Positions 2,398 to 36,438 of a stretch of 39,258 bases of DNA are shown piece by piece. Made by a program: the position numbers and the translations under genes. Source of the stretch: Bacteroidales bacterium (GTDB taxonomy: Bacteria > Bacteroidota > Bacteroidia > Bacteroidales > WCHB1-69). The DNA is taken from positions 1 through 39,258 of the forward strand of contig JAGCXN010000008.1 in NCBI GenBank assembly GCA_017961265.1, given 5' to 3'. How positions within the stretch are numbered: position 1 is the stretch's first letter; the number at the start of each line of letters is the position of its first letter. Below the pieces are notes generated by a model. That model was not told where the DNA came from. It searched no databases and saw only the letters and a program-made list of their open reading frames with translations.

Positions 2398-4251
2398 ATG
2401 AGTGACAATTACAACGATTCTAATATTATCACGTTAGAGTGGTATGAGCATATCCGTCTGCGCCCCGGTATGTACATCGGCAAGCTGGGGGACGGCAGCT
2501 CGCACGACGACGGCATCTATGTACTTCTGAAAGAGGTTATTGACAATTCCATTGATGAGTTCATGCAGGGTTATGGAAGAAGCATTGATGTGACCATCAA
2601 GGATAATGTGGTGAGCGTGCGCGACTACGGCCGCGGCATCCCGCTCAACAAGATGGTGGACTGCGTGTCGAAGATCAACACCGGTGGAAAATTCAACAGC
2701 GAGGCTTTCACCAACTCCATTGGCCAGAACGGCGTGGGTGTCAAGGCGGTGAACGCCCTCTCCACCCACTTCAAGGTGCAGAGTTTCCGCGACGGACAGA
2801 CGAAAGCCGCCGAATTTTCGTGTGGCAAGCTTATCTCCGAAACGCCCATTGAACTCTCCGACCAGCGGTCTGGCACCTTCACCTCCTTCACTATCGACGA
2901 CAGCATCTTCGTCAACTACCGCTGGGTCTCCCAGTACATCGTGAAGATGATGTGGAATTACGCTTACCTCAATAAGGGGCTTACTATCAACTTCAACGGT
3001 CAGAAGTTCCTGTCGAAGAACGGCTTGTACGACCTTCTTTGCAACAACGTAAACCAAGAGGAGATGCTGTACGAGCCTATCCACCTTCAGGACGAGAAGT
3101 TTGAGTTCGTGCTCACCCACACCACCCGTCACTACGGTGAGGAGTACTACTCGTTCGTCAACAGCCAGAACACGACACAGGGCGGCACGCACCAGAACGC
3201 CTTCCGCGAAGCGCTGGTCAAGACGTTCCGTACCTACTTCGGCAAGGAGTTCGACCCCGCCGACATCCGTAACGCCGTCGCAGCGGCCATCTCCATTAAG
3301 GTGCAGGAACCGGTGTTCGAGTCGCAGACCAAGATCCGCCTTGGCTCCACCATGATGCAGCCCGACGGCCAGACCATCCGCAACTACGTCAATGACGTGG
3401 TGGGCCGTCTGCTCGACAACTACCTCCACATGCACACCGATGTGGGAGAAATCATCAAAAAGAAAATCCTCGAATCGGAGGCCGAGCGCAAGGCTATCGC
3501 CAACATCAAGAAGGGGAACAAAGAAATCCAGAAGAAAGTAAGCCTAAACAACAGCAAGTTGCGCGACTGCAAGTACCATTACAACACCGACCGCAACGAC
3601 AAAGGTCTCAACTCTACCATCTTCATCACCGAAGGTCTGTCCGCTTCCGGCTCCATCACACAGTCGCGCGACAGTCAGACGCAGGCCGTTTTCAGCATGC
3701 GAGGCAAGACTCTCAACGTCATGAAGAGTTCGGAAGTGTATAAGAACGAAGAACTTAGTCTGCTCAATGCGGCTCTCAACATAGAGGACGGTCTGGAAGG
3801 ACTTCGTTATAATAATATTGTCATTGCCACTGATGCCGATGTGGATGGAATGCACATCCGTCTGCTGCTGCTCACCTACTTCCTCAACTATTTCCCGGAT
3901 GTGGTGCGCAACGGGCACGTCTATATTTTGCAAACCCCGCTGTTCCGTGTCCGCAACAAGACCAAGACCTTCTACTGCTATTCGGAGCAGGAGAAGCAGG
4001 ATGCCATCAAGCAGGTCGGTGCGAAGCCGGAAATCACCCGATTCAAAGGTTTGGGTGAAATCTCCCCAAAAGAATTTGTCAACTTCATCGGCAAGACGAT
4101 ACGTCTGGAGCCGGTCGTCCTTGAACCCAATACCAACATTAACAAGCTGTTGGAGTACTATATGGGTGGCAATAACAAGGAACGCCAGCAGTTTATCATC
4201 GACAACCTCCGTGAGGAAATCGACGAGGTGAATCCGGAAGAGTGGAATTAG
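2398..4251 (+). CDS. parE: DNA topoisomerase IV subunit B (GyrB/ParE family)
   Basis: ATPase subunit of a type IIA topoisomerase that works with ParC to decatenate chromosomes. The 617-aa length fits Bacteroidota ParE. Seen: GHKL ATPase motifs (VIDNSIDE near residue 48, RDYGRGIP near 76, GQNGVGVKAVN near 107), a TOPRIM domain with EGLSASGS at residues 412-419 and DADVDG at 479-484, and a C-terminal FKGLGEIS motif. Oddity: as I recall relatives, the TOPRIM glutamate is followed by Gly-Asp; here it is Gly-Leu (codon CTG at 3637-3639). The site corresponds to E. coli GyrB Asp426. The stop codon lies in a 7-bp tandem array. ParE rather than GyrB is inferred from length and the Bacteroidota-type SASGSIT sequence. 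Confidence 0.93.
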   Translation: MSDNYNDSNIITLEWYEHIRLRPGMYIGKLGDGSSHDDGIYVLLKEVIDNSIDEFMQGYGRSIDVTIKDNVVSVRDYGRGIPLNKMVDCVSKINTGGKFNSEAFTNSIGQNGVGVKAVNALSTHFKVQSFRDGQTKAAEFSCGKLISETPIELSDQRSGTFTSFTIDDSIFVNYRWVSQYIVKMMWNYAYLNKGLTINFNGQKFLSKNGLYDLLCNNVNQEEMLYEPIHLQDEKFEFVLTHTTRHYGEEYYSFVNSQNTTQGGTHQNAFREALVKTFRTYFGKEFDPADIRNAVAAAISIKVQEPVFESQTKIRLGSTMMQPDGQTIRNYVNDVVGRLLDNYLHMHTDVGEIIKKKILESEAERKAIANIKKGNKEIQKKVSLNNSKLRDCKYHYNTDRNDKGLNSTIFITEGLSASGSITQSRDSQTQAVFSMRGKTLNVMKSSEVYKNEELSLLNAALNIEDGLEGLRYNNIVIATDADVDGMHIRLLLLTYFLNYFPDVVRNGHVYILQTPLFRVRNKTKTFYCYSEQEKQDAIKQVGAKPEITRFKGLGEISPKEFVNFIGKTIRLEPVVLEPNTNINKLLEYYMGGNNKERQQFIIDNLREEIDEVNPEEWN

Positions 4252-4279
4252 GAGTTAGGAGTTAGGAGTTAGGGTATGA
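4245..4279 (+). repeat. 7-bp tandem array (TTAGGAG)
   Basis: The unit TTAGGAG occurs three times in exact tandem from 4248 to 4268, with degenerate units on both sides. The parE stop codon TAG (4249-4251) is the first copy of the motif, so the array starts inside the gene. Because 7 is not a multiple of 3, TAG recurs in all three frames. Confidence 0.85.
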
Positions 4280-5957: not shown

Positions 5958-5991
5958 TTTCAAGTTCATAAAGTTCATAAAGTTGAAAGTT
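5957..5991. repeat. AACTT array (reverse), 7/9/9/7-bp spacing
   Basis: On the + strand GTT cores start at 5957, 5964, 5973, 5982 and 5989, a 7, 9, 9, 7 pattern. The array begins at the last base of the kamD stop codon. Same family as at 4303 but inverted. Confidence 0.8.
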
Positions 5992-6020
5992 AACAAATTT
6001 GATTCATAAGATCATGAGTG

Positions 6021-6093: not shown

Positions 6094-7197
6094 ATGTTCA
6101 AATGGCGGAAAAAAAAGGAGTATCGTGCGGTTTCGTTGTCGGAACTGACGTGGAAGCGTTTCCGCAAGGAACCTGAAGGGGTCATTTCATTGGTTTTCAT
6201 CCTGTTAGTTATCGCTATAGCCATTCTTGGCTACCTCATCACCCCTGACCATACGCCCTATTGCAACCACCAGCAGTTGGAGATTGCCATCCGTCCGCCT
6301 GGCTTTACGGTGCAGCTGTTGCAGGTGAAGCCGGAACAGACCGTGCCCGAATGCGGCTTTTTCCGCCGTATGCTATACGGCCAACCGTCGCAATTCCGCA
6401 CTATCCCCATTGAGGGTTGGCGTGAAACGGCAGATTCGGTGTTTGTACGGATGTTTGAGGCGGGTGACGAAGATGAGGTCGGGTACGCCAAGTCCGAACT
6501 TTGCGACGAAGCGCCCGTCATCACAAAGAAGTTTCTATTGGGCACCGACCGTTATGGCCGTGATGTACTGAGCCAGCTGCTCATCGGCAGTCGCATCAGT
6601 CTGGCCGTGGGCGGAATTTCCGTTTTTATTGCCTTGGTCATCGGTATCTTGATTGGCTCCATTGCGGGTTACTTCCGCGGAAAAGTGGATGACGTGCTGA
6701 TGTGGTTCATCAACGTAGTGTGGTCCATCCCGACGCTGCTGCTGGTCATCGCCATCAGTTTTGCCTTGGGCAAAGGGTTCTGGCAGATTTTTATGGCTAT
6801 CGGCCTCACCATGTGGGTGGATGTGGCGAGAGTGGTCCGGGGTCAGATAATTAGTTTGCGCGAAAAAGAGTTTGTTGAAGCTGGAAAAGCATTAGGCTAC
6901 AGCAGTTTGCATATTATTTGGAAACACCTCCTTCCGAATGTATCTGGCACGGTGATTGTCATCGCAGCCTCCAATTTCTCGTCGGCCATCCTGATGGAGG
7001 CGGGGTTGAGTTTCTTGGGTATCGGCGTGCAGCCGCCCACTCCGTCGTGGGGCATGATGATGAAGGAAAACTACGCCTACATTGTCCTCGACAACGCCTA
7101 TCTCGCTATCATACCTGGCATCGCCATTATGCTCTTAGTGCTCTCTTTCATGCTGATAGGCAACACGATACAGAACGCCATTCGAGTGAAGAACTGA
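6094..7197 (+). CDS. ABC transporter permease, OppC/DppC type
   Basis: Inner-membrane permease subunit of a peptide/nickel-type (OppC) ABC importer family. ATG at 6094 is preferred over the in-frame GTG at 6028, which lies in a hairpin; this gives 367 aa. Seen: a basic N-terminus, a first membrane segment (SLVFILLVIAIAILGYLI), an unusually long extracytoplasmic stretch of roughly 100 residues, the sequence LLGTDRYGRDVLSQLLIGSR that opens the permease core, several more membrane segments, and an EAA coupling loop (EAGKALGYSSLHIIWKHLLP). No partner permease (OppB), ATPase (OppD/F) or binding protein is in the window. The gene's last codons lead into a 7-bp array. Substrate unknown; peptide is a family guess only. 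Confidence 0.88.
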   Translation: MFKWRKKKEYRAVSLSELTWKRFRKEPEGVISLVFILLVIAIAILGYLITPDHTPYCNHQQLEIAIRPPGFTVQLLQVKPEQTVPECGFFRRMLYGQPSQFRTIPIEGWRETADSVFVRMFEAGDEDEVGYAKSELCDEAPVITKKFLLGTDRYGRDVLSQLLIGSRISLAVGGISVFIALVIGILIGSIAGYFRGKVDDVLMWFINVVWSIPTLLLVIAISFALGKGFWQIFMAIGLTMWVDVARVVRGQIISLREKEFVEAGKALGYSSLHIIWKHLLPNVSGTVIVIAASNFSSAILMEAGLSFLGIGVQPPTPSWGMMMKENYAYIVLDNAYLAIIPGIAIMLLVLSFMLIGNTIQNAIRVKN

Positions 7198-7276
7198 AAA
7201 TTGAAAACTGAGAATTGAAACTAAGAAACTAAAAACGAACGATACTATACCCTATACCCTATACCCTGAACCCTTG
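7193..7276 (+). repeat. Twelve-unit degenerate 7-bp array
   Basis: Reading in 7s from 7193 gives ACTGAAA, ATTGAAA, ACTGAGA, ATTGAAA, CTAAGAA, ACTAAAA, ACGAACG, ATACTAT, ACCCTAT, ACCCTAT, ACCCTGA, ACCCTTG with no slip in phase. It starts in the last codons of the permease and ends on the TTG start codon of ribF. The motif shifts from ACTGAAA-like to ACCCTAT-like while the period stays at 7. Confidence 0.9.
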
Positions 7277-10306: not shown

Positions 10307-11206
10307 ATGAGTAGATCAAAGTTATTTATTACAATAAAATGGGGAGCCTTGCTTGGAGCAGGGCTTTCTCTCATTAAGTTGGCGACATATTATGCTGGCA
10401 CATTGGATGCCGAATATCCATTCGGTCCTATTTCGGACTTTCTGATGGTTGCTGCTTTTGTTGCTGCCATTTATATGGCTATCAAGGAAATACGGGATAA
10501 GAAGCAGGATGGGGTTATCCGTTTTGCTCCCGCCTTCGGCTATGGTATCATGGTTGTTTTCATTGCCTACGCCTTGATGGTATGCTACCTTTTGTGCCAC
10601 TACAAGTTCATTGAAACCGACGGCGTTGAGAAAAACAATCGCCGGAATATGGAATTGGCTTACCAGCGTCTTCAGAAAGAGCAGGTGACCGATACCGAGG
10701 TCAGTCAATACTATGAGAGTGTGGCTGCCATCATTCGCGAGGAGCGCAAGAGTATTGAAACTGACACCGTCTGCGCTGCGAAACTTGACAGTGCCCTCCA
10801 AATTCTGATGACTGCCTACGAAAGGCAGTTAGTGGAAAAATCACATGCAGCCGACGATCCTGCCTACCGACTCGACTCGTTCCAAACCAAGTCAACTGAA
10901 CTGTTGTACCGCTGCACGGGGGCTGTACTCGCCAACGCCAATGAAAGCGACCGTGAGTGTCTCGCCAACCTACCCGCCATCATTGATGCCAGTAGCTGCA
11001 AAATGCGGGCGGAAGATCCGCTGAATATCCGTTTTGAGGCAGTGAAACCCTCTATCCCCCAAAGCGATAGTCCTGTGATGGCCGCTTTTGCCTACTCATT
11101 GTCTATCCTCCTTTACGGCTTGCTACTCAATATCTTTGTCGCCCTTTTTCTTTATAGGAATGAAAAACGCAAATGTAGCCTCGACACCGACGAAACTGAA
11201 AACTGA
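10307..11206 (+). CDS. DUF4199 family membrane protein
   Basis: A 299-aa Bacteroidota protein of unknown function. Seen: membrane segments near residues 10-28, 43-60, 75-97 and 255-287, and between the last two a long acidic, probably helical, soluble region (about 100-250) rich in Glu, Arg and Ala. The membrane pattern and its place directly before a GT2 glycosyltransferase fit DUF4199, which I know commonly sits beside such enzymes in Bacteroidota. It follows the PpiD-like gene by 18 bp. The last codons (DETEN) are already part of the 7-bp array that fills the spacer. No function can be assigned. Confidence 0.75.
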   Translation: MSRSKLFITIKWGALLGAGLSLIKLATYYAGTLDAEYPFGPISDFLMVAAFVAAIYMAIKEIRDKKQDGVIRFAPAFGYGIMVVFIAYALMVCYLLCHYKFIETDGVEKNNRRNMELAYQRLQKEQVTDTEVSQYYESVAAIIREERKSIETDTVCAAKLDSALQILMTAYERQLVEKSHAADDPAYRLDSFQTKSTELLYRCTGAVLANANESDRECLANLPAIIDASSCKMRAEDPLNIRFEAVKPSIPQSDSPVMAAFAYSLSILLYGLLLNIFVALFLYRNEKRKCSLDTDETEN

Positions 11207-11264
11207 GAATTGAAAACTATACCCTATTCACTGAACCCTGAACCCTGACCCCTGTAAACTGAAT
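11195..11264 (+). repeat. Ten-unit degenerate 7-bp array
   Basis: In 7s from 11195: ACTGAAA, ACTGAGA, ATTGAAA, ACTATAC, CCTATTC, ACTGAAC, CCTGAAC, CCTGACC, CCTGTAA, ACTGAAT. It begins inside the DUF4199 gene, includes its TGA stop and runs into the ATG of the glycosyltransferase gene. The opening units are nearly the same as those at 7193. Confidence 0.9.
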
Positions 11265-14877: not shown

Positions 14878-14898
14878 ATTCCGAGGTTGCCCAACTTC

Positions 14899-16338
14899 AT
14901 GAAAAACAGGAACCTCATCGTCATCATCGGGAGCTTGCTGTTCGTGCTGGCCAATTCGTATGCCATCACGCGCGAGTTCTTCTATGTGCCGCTGTTGTCC
15001 GCCGTGGCTATCGTCATTTATCTGATGATCTGGCATGTGGACTGGCTGATGTACCTGACGGCATTGAGTGTCCCGTTCTCCATCGTTTTAGAAAGTGACA
15101 AGATTCATCTGGGCATCTCGCTTCCGTCGGAAGCGCTGATGGTGAGCCTAACCCTGCTGTTTTTTTGCCGAATCTGTTACGACCTTTCCATCCGACGGGA
15201 ATTGTTGCGGCATCCCATTACAATAGCTGTTTTTGTCTATCTCACATGGATGCTTGTCTGCTGTATCACATCGGAGTATCCATTGGTTTCCATAAAGTTC
15301 CTTTTGTCAAAAATCTGGTTCATCGTTTCCTCCTATTTTATGGTCATCCATCTGATGGAGAAAGATATACGGAAGTGGGTTGCCTTTTTCGACTGCTACA
15401 CTTTTTCACTTATGTGTGTGGTGTTGATCACGATGGTGAAGTATAGTGCGTATGGTTTTCAAGGGCACATTGCCCACTGGATTATGAAGCCGTTCTACAA
15501 TGACCATACAGCATACGGTGCTATTCTGGCCATGTTTCTGCCCATTGTCATCGGACTGATGTTCCTGCCTGATATCCCTAAGTGGAAACGTCTGTTTTAT
15601 GCAGTAGCGGCCGTCTTTTTTGCAGTAGCATTATACTTCTCTTATTGTCGTGCCGCATGGTTGAGTGTAATGGGTGCTGCGGGAATCTGGCTTGTGGTGA
15701 AGTTGCGCATCAAGTTCCAGTGGTTTGCCGCCGCTGTGCTGCTTTTGGGTGGACTTTTTCTCACTTTTTCTAACGATATTCTTTATACGATGTCGCGCAA
15801 CAGCCAAGATTCATCGGGTAATCTTGCAGAACATTTGCAATCCATCACTAATATCAGTACGGATGCCTCCAATGTAGAGCGACTCAACCGTTGGAATTCT
15901 GCCTTCCGCATGATTGAAGAACGTCCTATAATGGGTTGGGGACCGGGATGTTACCAATTCTGTTATGCCCCATACCAGGATTACCGTTATCATACCATTA
16001 TCTCCACCAATTTAGGTGATGGTGGCAATGCTCATAGTGAGTACATCGGTCCCACGGCGGAGACTGGTTTTATAGGACTTGCCACCGTAGTCGCACTGGT
16101 GGTGCTATGTCTTTACTATGGGATTATCACGGCCACACGTGCTCGAAGTGCTACGGTACGGCGTCTCAGCCTCACTGCCACTCTTGCCCTCATCACTTAC
16201 TTCATCCATGGTGCTCTCAACAACTTTCTGGACACCGATAAACTGGCATTGCCCTACTGGGGACTTTTTGCAATCATCGTGGTGCTCAATACGTGCTATA
16301 TGGAGACGGAAAATGGAGAATTGAAAACTGAAAATTGA
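14899..16338 (+). CDS. O-antigen ligase/polymerase (Wzy_C/WaaL family)
   Basis: Polytopic membrane protein of 479 aa with about 12 hydrophobic segments. ATG at 14899 is preferred to the in-frame TTG at 14887. Seen: SYCRAAWLSVMG within the central membrane region, a long periplasmic loop with RWNSAFRMIEERPIMGWGPG, and NAHSEYIGPTAETGFIGL, which resembles the conserved periplasmic His motif of ligases. Ligase and polymerase cannot be told apart by sequence. The last 11 residues (ETENGELKTEN) are encoded by the start of a 7-bp array, so the natural C-terminus may once have been shorter. Confidence 0.88.
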   Translation: MKNRNLIVIIGSLLFVLANSYAITREFFYVPLLSAVAIVIYLMIWHVDWLMYLTALSVPFSIVLESDKIHLGISLPSEALMVSLTLLFFCRICYDLSIRRELLRHPITIAVFVYLTWMLVCCITSEYPLVSIKFLLSKIWFIVSSYFMVIHLMEKDIRKWVAFFDCYTFSLMCVVLITMVKYSAYGFQGHIAHWIMKPFYNDHTAYGAILAMFLPIVIGLMFLPDIPKWKRLFYAVAAVFFAVALYFSYCRAAWLSVMGAAGIWLVVKLRIKFQWFAAAVLLLGGLFLTFSNDILYTMSRNSQDSSGNLAEHLQSITNISTDASNVERLNRWNSAFRMIEERPIMGWGPGCYQFCYAPYQDYRYHTIISTNLGDGGNAHSEYIGPTAETGFIGLATVVALVVLCLYYGIITATRARSATVRRLSLTATLALITYFIHGALNNFLDTDKLALPYWGLFAIIVVLNTCYMETENGELKTEN

Positions 16339-16340
16339 AA
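16306..16340 (+). repeat. 7-bp array at the ligase stop codon
   Basis: Five 7-bp units in phase: ACGGAAA, ATGGAGA, ATTGAAA, ACTGAAA, ATTGAAA. Same family as the arrays at 7193 and 11195. It covers the last codons and the TGA stop (16336-16338). Confidence 0.88.
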
Positions 16341-16349
16341 AATTTGTTG

Positions 16350-16397
16350 ATGCGAGGATAGGGGGATGCGATTTTACGGTTATACGATGAAGAGGTG
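16350..16397 (+). repeat. 8-bp array, copy A (left of dtd)
   Basis: 8-bp units ATGCGAGG, ATAGGGGG, ATGCGATT, TTACGGTT, ATACGATG, AAGAGGTG. A related array lies at 16990 on the other side of dtd; both share ATGCGAGG at the left end and ATGCGATT plus TACGGTT at the right. Between 16398 and 16462 the sequence stays AT-rich with loose 7-bp periodicity. Confidence 0.75.
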
Positions 16398-16462: not shown

Positions 16463-16539
16463 CCTTAACCCCATCTCCTATTACTTATTACTTATTACCT
16501 ATTACCTATCACTTTTAATTTTTAACTTTTAACTAAAAT
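16463..16539 (+). repeat. Eleven-unit 7-bp array before dtd
   Basis: In 7s: CCTTAAC, CCCATCT, CCTATTA, CTTATTA, CTTATTA, CCTATTA, CCTATCA, CTTTTAA, TTTTTAA, CTTTTAA, CTAAAAT. Phase is unbroken and ends in the ATG of dtd. The motif differs from the ACTGAAA family, but the period and placement are the same. Confidence 0.9.
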
Positions 16540-16978
16540 GAGGATTGTCGTACAACGATGCAGCCGAGCGGAGGTTCGGATTGATGGGGAGGCGGTTGGA
16601 AAGATTGGGCTTGGTTTTGTGCTTTTGGTGGGAATTACGCACGAAGACACGGAAAAGGAGGTGGAATGGATGGCGAAGAAGGTGGCCTCGTTGCGTGTAT
16701 TTGGGGATGATGAAGGGAAGATGAACCGTGCTGTCACGGAGGTGGGTGGAGCTATCTTGAGTATTTCGCAGTTTACGTTGTACGGCGATGCCCGCAAAGG
16801 CAACCGTCCCAGTTTTGTACAAGCCGCCCGTCCAGAGTTGGCGGAGCCGCTCTACAACCGTTTCAACACTCTCCTGCGAGACCTGTATGGACTGAGGGTG
16901 GAGACGGGCCGGTTCGGTGCCGATATGCAGGTGGACTTCGTCAACGACGGTCCGGTGACGATACTATTGGAGGCATGA
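16538..16978 (+). CDS. dtd: D-aminoacyl-tRNA deacylase
   Basis: Removes D-amino acids (and glycine from tRNA-Ala) mischarged onto tRNA; cytosolic homodimer. 146 aa, the normal length. Seen: N-terminal [17 protein letters not shown], the catalytic-site motif SQFTLYGD, and the C-terminal [11 protein letters not shown] with the cross-subunit Gly-Pro motif (G-P in DGPVT). Flanked by short tandem arrays on both sides, including two related 8-bp arrays. No operon partner is evident. Confidence 0.97.
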
Positions 16979-16989
16979 GAATTTGGGAT

Positions 16990-17029
16990 ATGCGAGGATG
17001 CGGGGATGCGGGAATGCGATTATACGGTT
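16990..17029 (+). repeat. 8-bp array, copy B (right of dtd)
   Basis: ATGCG recurs at 16990, 16998, 17006 and 17014, exactly every 8 bp (ATGCGAGG, ATGCGGGG, ATGCGGGA, ATGCGATT), followed by ATACGGTT. Related to copy A at 16350 and in the same orientation. Confidence 0.85.
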
Positions 17030-17033
17030 CACT

Positions 17034-17068
17034 TATTACCTTTTACATTTAAACTCTCAACTGAAATG
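17034..17068 (+). repeat. 7-bp array ending on a start codon
   Basis: TATTACC, TTTTACA, TTTAAAC, TCTCAAC, TGAAATG: five 7-bp units, the last of which contains the ATG at 17066. Same placement rule as the arrays before ribF, the GT2 gene and dtd. Confidence 0.75.
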
Positions 17069-22741: not shown

Positions 22742-23479
22742 CTACCGGCACGCCTCGTACAGCACGATGGCCGCGGCGATGGAGGCATTGAGCGACTCCG
22801 CCCGTTCGCCACTGTGCACACCCGCCGGGATGGAGACCTTGCGCGTCACCCGCGCCGCCACCTCTGGCGAGATCCCTTTCCCTTCACTCCCGATGACCAG
22901 CACGTCGCCCGCACGGAAAGCGGCCTCCTTCAACGGCTCACCCTCCATAAAGGTGCCGTAAACCTCCCCCGTCACCCGCCCCGAGGCGAGCAGTTCGGGC
23001 AGGTCCGTATAGACCACCTTCACCCGTGCGAACGACCCCATCGTGGCCTGCACCACCTTCGGGTTGGTCAGCTCCACGCAGTCGGGCGAGCAGACCACCT
23101 GCCGGATGCCGAACCAGTCGGCGGTGCGCACCATCGTGCCGAGGTTGCCGGGGTCGCGGATGCCGTCGAGCATCAGGAGGGTGCGGCCGAAGTCGAGGTC
23201 GTGGAGAGAAGGTTCGGGGCGGGCCGCCACTGCCAGCACCTGCTGCGGGGTGGTGAGGCAGCTGATCCGCGCCAGTTCGCTTTCAGAGACGCTTTCGCTA
23301 GCCACACCGCGCAGCTCGTCCGCGTGCGTCTCCAACCACTGGGGCATCGCGAACACCGCGGTCACTTTCAGTTCCGAATGGAGCAGGTCGAGCACCGACT
23401 TGGTGCCCTCCACAATGAAAAGCCCCGTCTCTTCACGGAACTTCTTCTGGGATAGCGAACGGACTTGTTTGAGGTTCAT
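22742..23479 (-). CDS. TrmH/SpoU-family rRNA 2'-O-methyltransferase
   Basis: SAM-dependent methyltransferase of the trefoil-knot SPOUT class. 245 aa. Seen: an N-terminal substrate-binding domain (KFREETGLFIVEGTKSV), motif 1 DGIRDPGNLGTMVRTADWFG with the conserved Asn and Arg, motif 2 VIGSEGKGISPEV, and motif 3 ESLNASIAAAIVLYE. The overall form is that of TrmH-family 23S rRNA methyltransferases; the exact target base cannot be assigned. Its start codon is the edge of an AACTT array. Codon use is very GC-rich compared with the four-helix gene next to it. Confidence 0.93.
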   Translation of the reverse strand: MNLKQVRSLSQKKFREETGLFIVEGTKSVLDLLHSELKVTAVFAMPQWLETHADELRGVASESVSESELARISCLTTPQQVLAVAARPEPSLHDLDFGRTLLMLDGIRDPGNLGTMVRTADWFGIRQVVCSPDCVELTNPKVVQATMGSFARVKVVYTDLPELLASGRVTGEVYGTFMEGEPLKEAAFRAGDVLVIGSEGKGISPEVAARVTRKVSIPAGVHSGERAESLNASIAAAIVLYEACR

Positions 23480-23517
23480 AAAGTTACAGGTTTATCAAGT
23501 TACAAGTTTATCAGGTT
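23474..23517. repeat. AACTT array (reverse), strict 9/7/9/7/9 spacing
   Basis: GTT cores at 23474, 23483, 23490, 23499, 23506 and 23515 on the + strand. It overlaps the first codons of the methyltransferase gene and lies between two divergent genes. Confidence 0.85.
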
Positions 23518-23955: not shown

Positions 23956-24022
23956 TACTTGACAAACTTTACGAACCTGATGAACTTTATGAACCTTATA
24001 AACTTGATGAACTTTATAAACT
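23956..24022. repeat. AACTT array, perfect 9-bp spacing
   Basis: AAC cores at 23965, 23974, 23983, 23992, 24001, 24010 and 24019, seven units with no slip. It fills the gap between the convergent four-helix gene and nadB and runs into the nadB stop codon. Confidence 0.9.
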
Positions 24023-25649: not shown

Positions 25650-25656
25650 CAACGAA

Positions 25657-25691
25657 GTTGCAAGTTTGTCAAGTTACAAGTTCATCAAGTT
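25657..25691. repeat. AACTT array (reverse), 7/9/7/9 spacing
   Basis: GTT cores on the + strand at 25657, 25664, 25673, 25680 and 25689. It sits immediately upstream of the nadB -7 element, where the -33 region should be. Confidence 0.85.
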
Positions 25692-34960: not shown

Positions 34961-36319
34961 TTACTTTATTTGTAGCTTTCCCGCTTTCACTCCGAAGAAG
35001 ATGAGGTAGATGTAGGCGAGGACGGGGATGAAGAAGGAGAAGTGGTAGCCTCCCATTGCGTCGGCGACCGCCCCTTGCAGCAAAGGCAGCAATGCGCCAC
35101 CGATAATGGCCATCACAAGGAGGGACGACCCTTGCGCCTTGTACTTCCCGAGATTGGCGATGGAAGCGGCGAAGATGTTGGACCACATCACGGAGTTGAA
35201 AAGGCCGGTAGCAATTAGGAACCAGAGGGTGGAGTAGCCGCCGAGGTACATTGCAGCGGCGAGGAAGATGATGTTCACGCCGGCGAACACCGCAATCAGC
35301 CGTGTGGATTCGGAACGGCCCACCATAAAGGCGAAGATGTTGACCACGATGAAGATGAGGTATGGAAGCATCGCCTTTGGACTGAAGGTGTCGGGATGCA
35401 ACAGGTAGTTGATGCCGATGAGCACGCCGAAGGTGGCGAGGGCGACGAGGAGCATCGTTCCGTAGCGTTGCACTTCGCTCTTGAACGGGACGAGGGTGAG
35501 GGCTCCGAGGAAACGTCCGATCATCAGGCCGCCCCAGTAAAAGGCAAGGTAGTTGGCCGCACTCTGTTTGGGAAGGTCAGGAATGAGTTCCAGGGCGAAG
35601 TTGATGAAGCTGCTGCCGATGCATACCTCCGCACCCACATAGCAGAAGATGGCGAAGATGCCAAGCAGAAGGGTCTTGTCCTTCAATGCGGCCGCACCCG
35701 ACTCCAGTTTCTCGTCGTTTTGGAACGAAGGAAGCGGCACGATGGCAATCAGCAGGGCGATGAGCAGGAAGAGGCCGCTGAACAGGAGATAGGGGATGTG
35801 GATGTGGGCCGCATCGCCCAGCTTGGCCAGCAGGATGCCGCCCAGCATCGGCGCGAGCGTGGTGCCGAGCGAGTTGAGTGCTTGCGACAGGTTCAGCCGT
35901 CCCGACGCGCCCTCCGGTTCACCGAGCAAGGTGACGTACGGGTTGGCCGCAATCTGCAAGATGGTGACCCCCAGTCCGATGACGAACAGCCCCGTGAGGA
36001 AAAGTCCGTACAGGTTCATTGTGGAGGCGGGGTAGAAGAGGGCGCAACCTGCCGCTGAAATCAGCAGGCCAGCCAGAATCCCCTTCTTGTAACCGATCTT
36101 GTTGATGGGGTCCCCGGCGGTGACGGAGATGAGGAAGTAGATGAGCGACCCCACGAAGTAGGCGCCGAAAAAGCAGAACTGCACGAACATCGAAGCCGCG
36201 CGGCTCAGCTGGAACATCTCCTTCAGTTCGGGAATCAGGATGTCGTTCATGCAGGTGATGAATCCCCACATGAAGAAAAGGCAGACAATCGCTGCAAAAG
36301 AAAAGGAACTCTTTTTCAT
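34961..36319 (-). CDS. Sugar MFS transporter (FucP/GluP family)
   Basis: A 452-aa major facilitator with 12 predicted membrane helices, a proton-coupled sugar importer. Seen: FFMWGFITCMNDILIPELK at helix 1, GVTILQIAANPYVTLLGEPE and SGRLNLSQALNSLGTTLAP, typical of the FHS (fucose-glucose-galactose) branch. L-fucose or glucose/galactose are the likely substrates; which one cannot be told. No sugar-metabolism genes are nearby. Confidence 0.93.
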   Translation of the reverse strand: MKKSSFSFAAIVCLFFMWGFITCMNDILIPELKEMFQLSRAASMFVQFCFFGAYFVGSLIYFLISVTAGDPINKIGYKKGILAGLLISAAGCALFYPASTMNLYGLFLTGLFVIGLGVTILQIAANPYVTLLGEPEGASGRLNLSQALNSLGTTLAPMLGGILLAKLGDAAHIHIPYLLFSGLFLLIALLIAIVPLPSFQNDEKLESGAAALKDKTLLLGIFAIFCYVGAEVCIGSSFINFALELIPDLPKQSAANYLAFYWGGLMIGRFLGALTLVPFKSEVQRYGTMLLVALATFGVLIGINYLLHPDTFSPKAMLPYLIFIVVNIFAFMVGRSESTRLIAVFAGVNIIFLAAAMYLGGYSTLWFLIATGLFNSVMWSNIFAASIANLGKYKAQGSSLLVMAIIGGALLPLLQGAVADAMGGYHFSFFIPVLAYIYLIFFGVKAGKLQIK

Positions 36320-36396: not shown

Positions 36397-36438
36397 CCTT
36401 TTCGTTTTCCGTTTTCACTTTTCCATTTTCAATTTATT
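36397..36438. repeat. 7-bp array (reverse of the ACTGAAA family)
   Basis: In 7s: CCTTTTC, GTTTTCC, GTTTTCA, CTTTTCC, ATTTTCA, ATTTATT. Its complement reads TGAAAAT, GGAAAAG, TGAAAAC, GGAAAAC, matching the family at 7193, 11195 and 16306. It lies between two divergent -7 elements. Confidence 0.8.

Follow-up and report, generated by a model that had tools for sequence, protein, structure and literature searches.

Intergenic heptanucleotide arrays with changing motifs and a constant 7-bp step in a Bacteroidales genome

Several spacers between genes in one stretch of Bacteroidales DNA are built of degenerate 7-bp units, and they raise the question of why the period should hold while the motif changes from site to site. 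The stretch, hereafter the window, comprises 39,258 nucleotides (contig 35, positions 1-39258, from a draft genome totalling 1.89 Mb over 47 contigs), and a search with one protein places rumen and gut Bacteroidales MAGs as the closest named relatives of its source. A preliminary description had picked seven such sites by eye and had argued for a process or function that sees a 7-bp step. The arrays in and around these sites are listed below, with the names OppC, FAD synthetase, DUF4199 and O-antigen ligase taken from Pfam.

4244..4273, plus strand: GGAGTTA array of 4.3 units, over the stop codon (4249-4251) of the gene at 2398-4251.
7192..7239, plus strand: purine-rich AACTGAA/AATTGAA array, beginning at the stop codon (7195-7197) of an OppC-type permease gene.
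7245..7274, plus strand: pyrimidine-rich CTATACC/CTGAACC array, reaching the probable TTG start (7274) of a FAD synthetase (RibF-type) gene.
11193..11264, plus strand: array whose units switch from AAACTGA to ACCCTGA without loss of phase, detected to 11254; it covers the DUF4199 stop (gene at 10307-11206) and extends to the following start (11263).
16306..16341, plus strand: ATTGAAA/ACTGAAA array over the end and stop of an O-antigen ligase-type gene (14887-16338).
16470..16534, plus strand: pyrimidine-rich CTTATTA/CCTATTA/CTTTTAA array, stopping 3 bp short of the start of the gene at 16538-16978.
17034..17068, plus strand: weak pyrimidine-rich 7-bp repeat, up to a probable ATG at 17066.
36399..36435, no strand assigned: TTTTCGT/TTTCCAT array between divergent genes with starts at 36319 (minus) and 36513 (plus).

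Lag-7 identity at each site was compared with that of 2000 within-site shuffles. All seven sites that had been described beat their own shuffles, and at every one of them lag 7 scores highest among lags 5-12. Specifically, none of the 2000 shuffles reaches the identity observed at 4245-4279 (22/28), 7193-7276 (49/77), 11195-11264 (42/63), 16306-16340 (22/28), 16463-16539 (50/70) or 36397-36438 (24/35). The weakest site, 17034-17068 (16/28), is reached by three shuffles and lies under the array threshold. The 7-bp repeat at 7193-7276 is real, but the twelve units in unbroken phase described there do not hold, since TRF reports a 7-bp piece (7195-7220), an intervening 8-bp piece (7217-7236) and a further 7-bp piece (7245-7267). 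In other words, this spacer is a mosaic in which a 7-bp piece runs from the stop codon, an 8-bp piece follows, and CTATACC is present in three exact copies at 7245-7267. Two of the arrays also encode the C-terminal residues of the protein upstream (..ETENGELKTEN at 16303-16338 and ..ETEN at 11193-11206).

Because the seven sites were picked by eye, a sample-wide lag test carries more weight. The sample of 432.5 kb consists of the window and 20 other stretches of the same genome (393,286 bases, 21% of the genome), many of which were picked on contigs with pattern matches, so that array density may exceed the genome average somewhat. Genes were called with our own scripts using a hexamer model, and four window genes missed in this way were sought by hand. 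The calls miss some genes and leave start codons uncertain, and L015:9643-10064 and L015:13866-14800 probably contain uncalled ORFs. The resulting set holds 202 spacers of at least 20 bp.

In these spacers, runs of at least nine matches number 39 at lag 7, compared to 0.62 in shuffled spacers, with 34 at lag 14, 19 at lag 21 and at most seven at each remaining lag from 2 to 30. The preliminary description had proposed measuring lag 7 in spacers against shuffled controls, and the excess is indeed present: 50 segments score at least 14 at lag 7 against a shuffle mean of 0.0, while lags 14, 8, 16 and 9 yield 44, 12, 7 and 5 segments, respectively, and the rest of lags 4-16 yield at most two each. 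Lowering the threshold to 10 gives 64 lag-7 arrays in 46 of the 202 spacers (shuffle mean 1.9), and a threshold of 12 gives 58 arrays in 44 spacers. Coding DNA, with 30 bp cut from both ends, contains three segments scoring at least 12 in 353 kb. The heptamer arrays are thus confined to intergenic DNA and dispersed across the genome. Overall, the period profile peaks mainly at 7, flanked by smaller shoulders at 8 and 6.

The 58 arrays scoring at least 12 represent 22 cyclic consensus units, which rules out one mobile repeat family. The commonest units are AAAATTG and AAAACTG (20 arrays together), AATAGGT (six) and AAAAAGT (five); many arrays are degenerate, and exact copies also occur. The earlier claim that the motif changes between sites therefore stands in that the units are varied, but the variation is not free, as a few families recur. 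For example, ACTGAAAACTGAAA has 95 genome matches with at most one mismatch, compared to one for its backward control, and AATTGAAAACT is present in 22 of the 202 sampled spacers, compared to a single shuffled set in which no 11-mer is found in more than five. With the own genome counted, AYTGAAA x3 is found in 21 of 295 genomes of the order and GGTRATA x3, allowing one mismatch, in five of 295, with 123 matches in the own genome. The backward control of the latter (ATARTGG x3) matched other genomes, with 51 matches in the Bacteroidales genome G081. The G081 matches appear to represent an independent heptamer family, and at least some other genomes thus use different heptamers.

The arrays follow a strand rule that depends on which end of a gene they adjoin. 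Read on the gene strand, G exceeds C in 28 of 29 own arrays within 30 bp of a stop (32 of 37 at all distances), and C exceeds G in 14 of 15 own arrays within 30 bp of a start (24 of 27 at all distances). Where an own spacer holds at least two arrays, the plus-strand order from first to last array is purine-rich (R) then pyrimidine-rich (Y) in 15 of 16 cases, the remaining one being 0Y. Among relatives, the 34 spacers with at least two arrays comprise 16 RY, six RR, six YY, three R0, two YR and one 0R. Within 30 bp, 64 of 80 stop-side arrays of relatives have G above C and 14 have C above G, and 19 of 33 start-side arrays have C above G and 13 the reverse; counted per locus, the rule is kept at 33, broken at eight and tied at four loci that share descent. 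The rule, purine-rich from the stop and pyrimidine-rich to the next start, is strict in the own genome and looser in relatives.

Arrays that overlap a stop codon are purine-rich partly because of ascertainment, since the stop codon itself ends the ORF. When only stop-side arrays that lie fully outside coding DNA are counted, G exceeds C in seven and C exceeds G in four in the own genome (not significant), and in 22 and 10, respectively, in relatives (p=0.05). When the coding overlap alone is trimmed, the corresponding counts are 30 versus 5 and 68 versus 16. On the start side, the last 20 bases ahead of starts are G-poor across this genome generally.

The Bacteroidetes promoter consensus is TAnnTTTG. 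A site of this kind is present in 5 of 27 array spacers compared to 36 of 55 array-less spacers (p=1e-4; codirectional spacers of 60-400 bp), so the arrays are mostly operon-internal, as far as the consensus can tell.

Orthologous spacers reveal that arrays stay in place while their content is replaced. A counterpart in at least one of the related genomes G317, G343 and G336 exists for 43 own spacers, 31 of which are array-less. The G317 ortholog of an array spacer also carries an array in 11 of 11 cases, the G343 ortholog in 9 of 12 and the G336 ortholog in 1 of 4; no ortholog of the 31 array-less spacers carries one in these three genomes. The motif at a retained location can differ entirely. 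For example, L016:2552-2673 reads GTAAAAG..ACCTATT in the own genome and GAATAGT..CTATACCCTAACTA in G343, and the G317 ortholog of L016:7906-8059 consists mostly of CCTGTAA repeats. Length changes as well. Among the own genome, G317 and G343 (G336 was left out), the median length difference between orthologs is 46 bp for the 34 pairs with any array and 3 bp for the 42 pairs without. A wider pool with flank identity of at least 92% gives 50.5 bp (38 pairs) and 2 bp (86 pairs), respectively. The gap between the oppC-type and ribF-type genes illustrates this turnover. It measures 76 bp in the own genome; the two nearest species have 39 and 150 bp, and a third species has 161 bp made up of other repeats. 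In five array-less congeners it ranges from -2 to 29 bp. The nearest sisters, then, retain arrays in the same spacers, with motif and length replaced.

This conservation of location is not universal. In the wider pool, with same-genome pairs left out, pairs with an array in both members and in one only number 38 and 26 at flank identity of at least 92%, 33 and 15 at 87-92%, 26 and 23 at 80-87%, and 2 and 15 at 70-80%. Some length changes are the size of whole units: L119, L120 and L121 differ by 14, 21 and 35 bp, L093 and L097 by 7, and L015:10512-10553 measures 42, 49 and 42 bp in the genomes compared. Multiples of 7 make up 5 of 33 ortholog length differences among the own genome, G317 and G343, and 5/32, 2/33, 2/26 and 2/2 in the falling identity bands of the wider pool, where chance predicts 1 in 7. 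The period itself can also shift: the AAGTATA array at L015:13866-14800 has a 7-bp step in the own genome and, as judged by eye, mostly an 8-bp step (AAGTATAA) in its G317 ortholog.

Composite dispersed modules, in which a core lies between two arrays, do seem to occur. A core of approximately TTCCxxCGCACAxCCCTCTTCAT, drawn by eye, is flanked by GTAAAAG and ACCTATT arrays in several places, namely L016:2552-2673, L015:14675-14800 and L023:16459-16652, together with orthologs in G317 and G343.

A survey of 80 loci from other Bacteroidales around a gene that we take to be panB (gyrB and the other gene labels are presumed likewise) provided 629 spacers, with a gene set covering 87% of bases. Lag 7 yields 144 arrays in 45 of the 80 loci, compared to 4-6 in shuffles at the same lag, and lags 6, 8, 9, 10, 11 and 16 yield 15, 40, 11, 5, 9 and 32. 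A poorer gene set (68% of bases) gives 138 lag-7 arrays in 41 loci. The families vary from locus to locus and include GTTTAAG, TAGTTAG, TTGGATA, AATGCTG, ATAACCC and AGTGATT, but they share the step and are placed similarly. This constancy across many motif families and 45 loci, together with the swapping of motifs while arrays stay put, supports the proposal that some process sees a 7-bp step.

These arrays are intergenic heptanucleotide tandem repeats of a known, minisatellite-like class termed LSSR or STRR, whose cyanobacterial members were reportedly the subject of work by Mazel in 1990. The preliminary description had named no described system that fits, which overlooked this class (PMC4692102, PMC4679880). 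These two papers describe heptamers in Xanthomonas, Nostoc, Beggiatoaceae and a few Bacteroidetes, and rank them as the most abundant long-unit repeat category in most surveyed genomes. The likeness lies in 7-bp tandem units that are intergenic and dispersed (PMC4679880, PMC4692102). The present arrays differ in their degenerate units, in having several intergrading families per genome, and in their rumen and gut Bacteroidales hosts. According to these papers, a preference for 7 bp among bacterial tandem repeats was recognised in 2007, and the hypothesis put forward for it, cited in PMC4692102, is slippage determined by polymerase contacts.

A parallel in placement is provided by the GGGAATC and GGGGA(C/T)T repeats of Rehm 2015, which are reported on the coding strand less than 50 bp past stops, overlapping them, and on the non-coding strand less than 50 bp ahead of starts, with inverted pairs occurring (PMC4692102). 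Between two Xanthomonas, 83% are said there to hold their locus while length and sequence vary (PMC4692102). Placement and strand rule are shared with the present arrays, but just 2 of the 58 own arrays have the four tracts of at least three G on one strand needed for a quadruplex, so G-quadruplex formation cannot be the general reason in this genome and was rejected. The TAACTGA repeats of MacGregor 2015 are likewise intergenic heptamers, often near start codons and mixed with other heptamers; their stated hosts are Beggiatoaceae, Cyanobacteria and five Bacteroidetes, and their indels between two Cyanothece strains are mostly 7-nt increments (PMC4679880). In the Guaymas genome (BOGUAY), TAACTGA is mostly forward and directly upstream of starts (PMC4679880), whereas in the present genome it is at stops that purine-rich arrays lie. 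The exact TAACTGA pair occurs zero times in the 432.5 kb sample.

Among the matches listed in a literature search, no study of heptamer arrays in Bacteroidales appeared beyond PMC4679880. What is new here is the coexistence of mostly non-quadruplex motif families and a strand rule that holds with them, the avoidance of spacers with promoter-like sites, and the retention of arrays in the same spacers of sister genomes with motif and length replaced. The presence of many heptamer families in the same conserved Bacteroidales spacers makes it possible to test the cause of the 7-bp step free of the G-quadruplex confound. Should the strand rule prove general to heptamers, G4 structure alone would be insufficient to account for the repeats of Xanthomonas and Nostoc.

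The explanation that we favour, and that we consider somewhat better than an even bet, is slippage together with array-to-array copying in tolerant operon-internal spacers, shaped by selection beside genes, in which the array as such would have no dedicated function. Presumably, arrays would begin as short duplications with a step of about 7 bp, arising from slippage in DNA synthesis. They would then gain and lose units. Units would also be swapped or copied between arrays at different places in the genome, and this could homogenise a few motif families. Because the array spacers hold no promoter, new sequence would mostly be tolerated there. At the edges of the spacer, selection would require that the reading frame stay unbroken, and since the leader ahead of a start codon stays G-poor, pyrimidine-rich units would be favoured at that end.

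The single main peak at 7 with its shoulders might fit a physical step during DNA synthesis. Motif replacement at fixed places, combined with recurring families, fits copying between arrays more than independent slippage, and the lack of any excess of multiples of 7 means that unit slippage alone fails to explain the turnover. Further observations stand against this account. Plain slippage predicts neither the purine bias on the stop side nor the R-then-Y order, the fact that the two nearest species have arrays in the same spacers could mean that they are kept for a function, and stop codons in the arrays of relatives exceed what composition predicts.

A function in mRNA is the alternative that survives best, although we regard it as rather unlikely. 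The arrays would be an intercistronic RNA element whose two arms, the purine one behind the stop and the pyrimidine one ahead of the next start, act through pairing, Rho access, translation coupling or termination, with the 7-nt step allowing register-tolerant pairing. The near-uniform R-then-Y order of own multi-array spacers (15/16), the preference for promoter-less spacers and the retention of location in the nearest species are all in its favour. The order is looser in relatives (RY 16/34), however, and the folding of array spacers (mean z -1.43, n=28) is no better than that of array-less ones (-1.79, n=65). Compared with swapped arms, own arms are no better partners (mean rank 0.60 of 15 spacers), and those of relatives do slightly better than chance (mean rank 0.35 of 16). 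For the window spacers at 7198-7273 and 11207-11262, the folding energies are 0.0 and -0.2 kcal/mol. In contrast, complementary arms at L119-L121 fold with z of -3.5, -4.8 and -4.5 despite changing unit numbers. A general two-arm hairpin was therefore rejected on the swapped-arm and folding tests and kept for loci such as these.

At L119:3910-4025, L120:9883-9983 and L121:9848-9983, complementary GTTTAAG and AAACCTT arrays are predicted to form a strong hairpin, which lies directly upstream of a promoter-like site.

The strand rule could instead reflect how the arrays are made. A sequence-tolerant process common to Bacteroidales, Xanthomonas and cyanobacteria might extend DNA from gene ends into spacers that lack promoters, adding it in 7-base steps such that the purine-rich strand points 5' to 3' away from the gene, and might repeatedly supply the same spacers with new motifs; in this reading, neither quadruplexes nor hairpins nor stop codons would explain the strand rule across all hosts. 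We judge this unlikely. It seems decidedly unlikely that the arrays grow outward from gene ends through a dedicated 7-bp writing process, with the purine strand running 5' to 3' in the outward direction; candidates would be an end-extension or template-switch enzyme, or the machinery moving the REP-like elements found beside arrays. The same outward strand rule is reported with other motifs in Xanthomonas and Nostoc (PMC4692102). REP-like hairpins lie in or beside TGAAAAY arrays at five of the eight element sites of the sample (read from nine BLAST matches), but the element has no BLAST match in the window. Y1 transposase genes, the sole marker family tried, are found in 14 of 14 genomes with lag-7 arrays at the panB locus, 11 of 14 without and 6 of 6 further genomes, and with a presence in 31 of 34 genomes they hardly discriminate. 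Unit identity shows no trend with distance from the gene (0.80 proximal, 0.77 distal; n=32), and outward terminal growth was rejected for this reason.

The REP-like element itself is a dispersed two-hairpin sequence of approximately 50 bp with a GTAG tag, ending in GGGGTAGTAG, as at L015:16008-16062. Other copies are at L011:7649, L021:15551, L026:206-334 and 6247-6377, and L013:134 and 19475, and sister genomes contain dozens of matches at approximately 88-100% identity. It resembles the GTAG-tagged REPs associated with RAYT transposases (Di Nocera 2013, PMC3733652), which are short dispersed GTAG palindromes; the copies here share spacers with the arrays, and some lie within them. The arrays differ from such REPs in being tandem units without a tagged palindrome.

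It had also been suggested that stop codons within the units close all three frames within 21 bp and so form a translation barrier between genes, an idea that gains weak support at best and that we hold to be highly unlikely. Own stop-side arrays close the three frames in 81% of cases compared to 64% for permuted units (n=37), a figure that follows partly from the definition of ORF ends, and on the start side 22% of own arrays have every sense frame closed. Per unit, the non-coding part of own arrays has no excess of stops, with 0.85 versus 0.80 permuted on the stop side (51/300 permutations reach the observed value) and 0.27 versus 0.21 on the start side (36/300). Relatives do have an excess at both ends in the non-coding part, with 0.83 versus 0.68 on the stop side (n=82; 0/300 reach) and 0.71 versus 0.48 on the start side (n=51; 0/300 reach), at loci that share descent. 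On the start side, this excess is restricted to the sense strand (antisense 0.54 versus 0.55), but on the stop side the antisense strand has one too (0.51 versus 0.41). A frame constraint would also favour periods 8, 10 and 11 over 6 and 9. Period 6 is rarer than 8, but 9 is not rarer than 10 or 11. Furthermore, the GGGAATC (Xanthomonas) and GGGGAYT (Nostoc) units contain no stop in any frame and obey the same placement rule.

Phase-variation (contingency) repeats controlling surface genes are scarcely credible, for although unit number differs between species and one neighbour is an O-antigen ligase-type gene, arrays also adjoin RibF-type FAD synthetase, OppC-type permease and DUF4199 genes, and they lie outside coding DNA, mostly without promoter-like sites in the same spacer.

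Two further repeat features are present in the window. A second repeat class, based on AAGTT/AACTT with periods of 9, 16 and 27 bp, occupies the spacers at 5962-6002, 23472-23517, 23957-24022 and 25655-25691. Finally, positions 16343-16385 and 16985-17030 have in common an 8-bp module resembling GATGCGGG, which is followed by GATTxTACGGTT.
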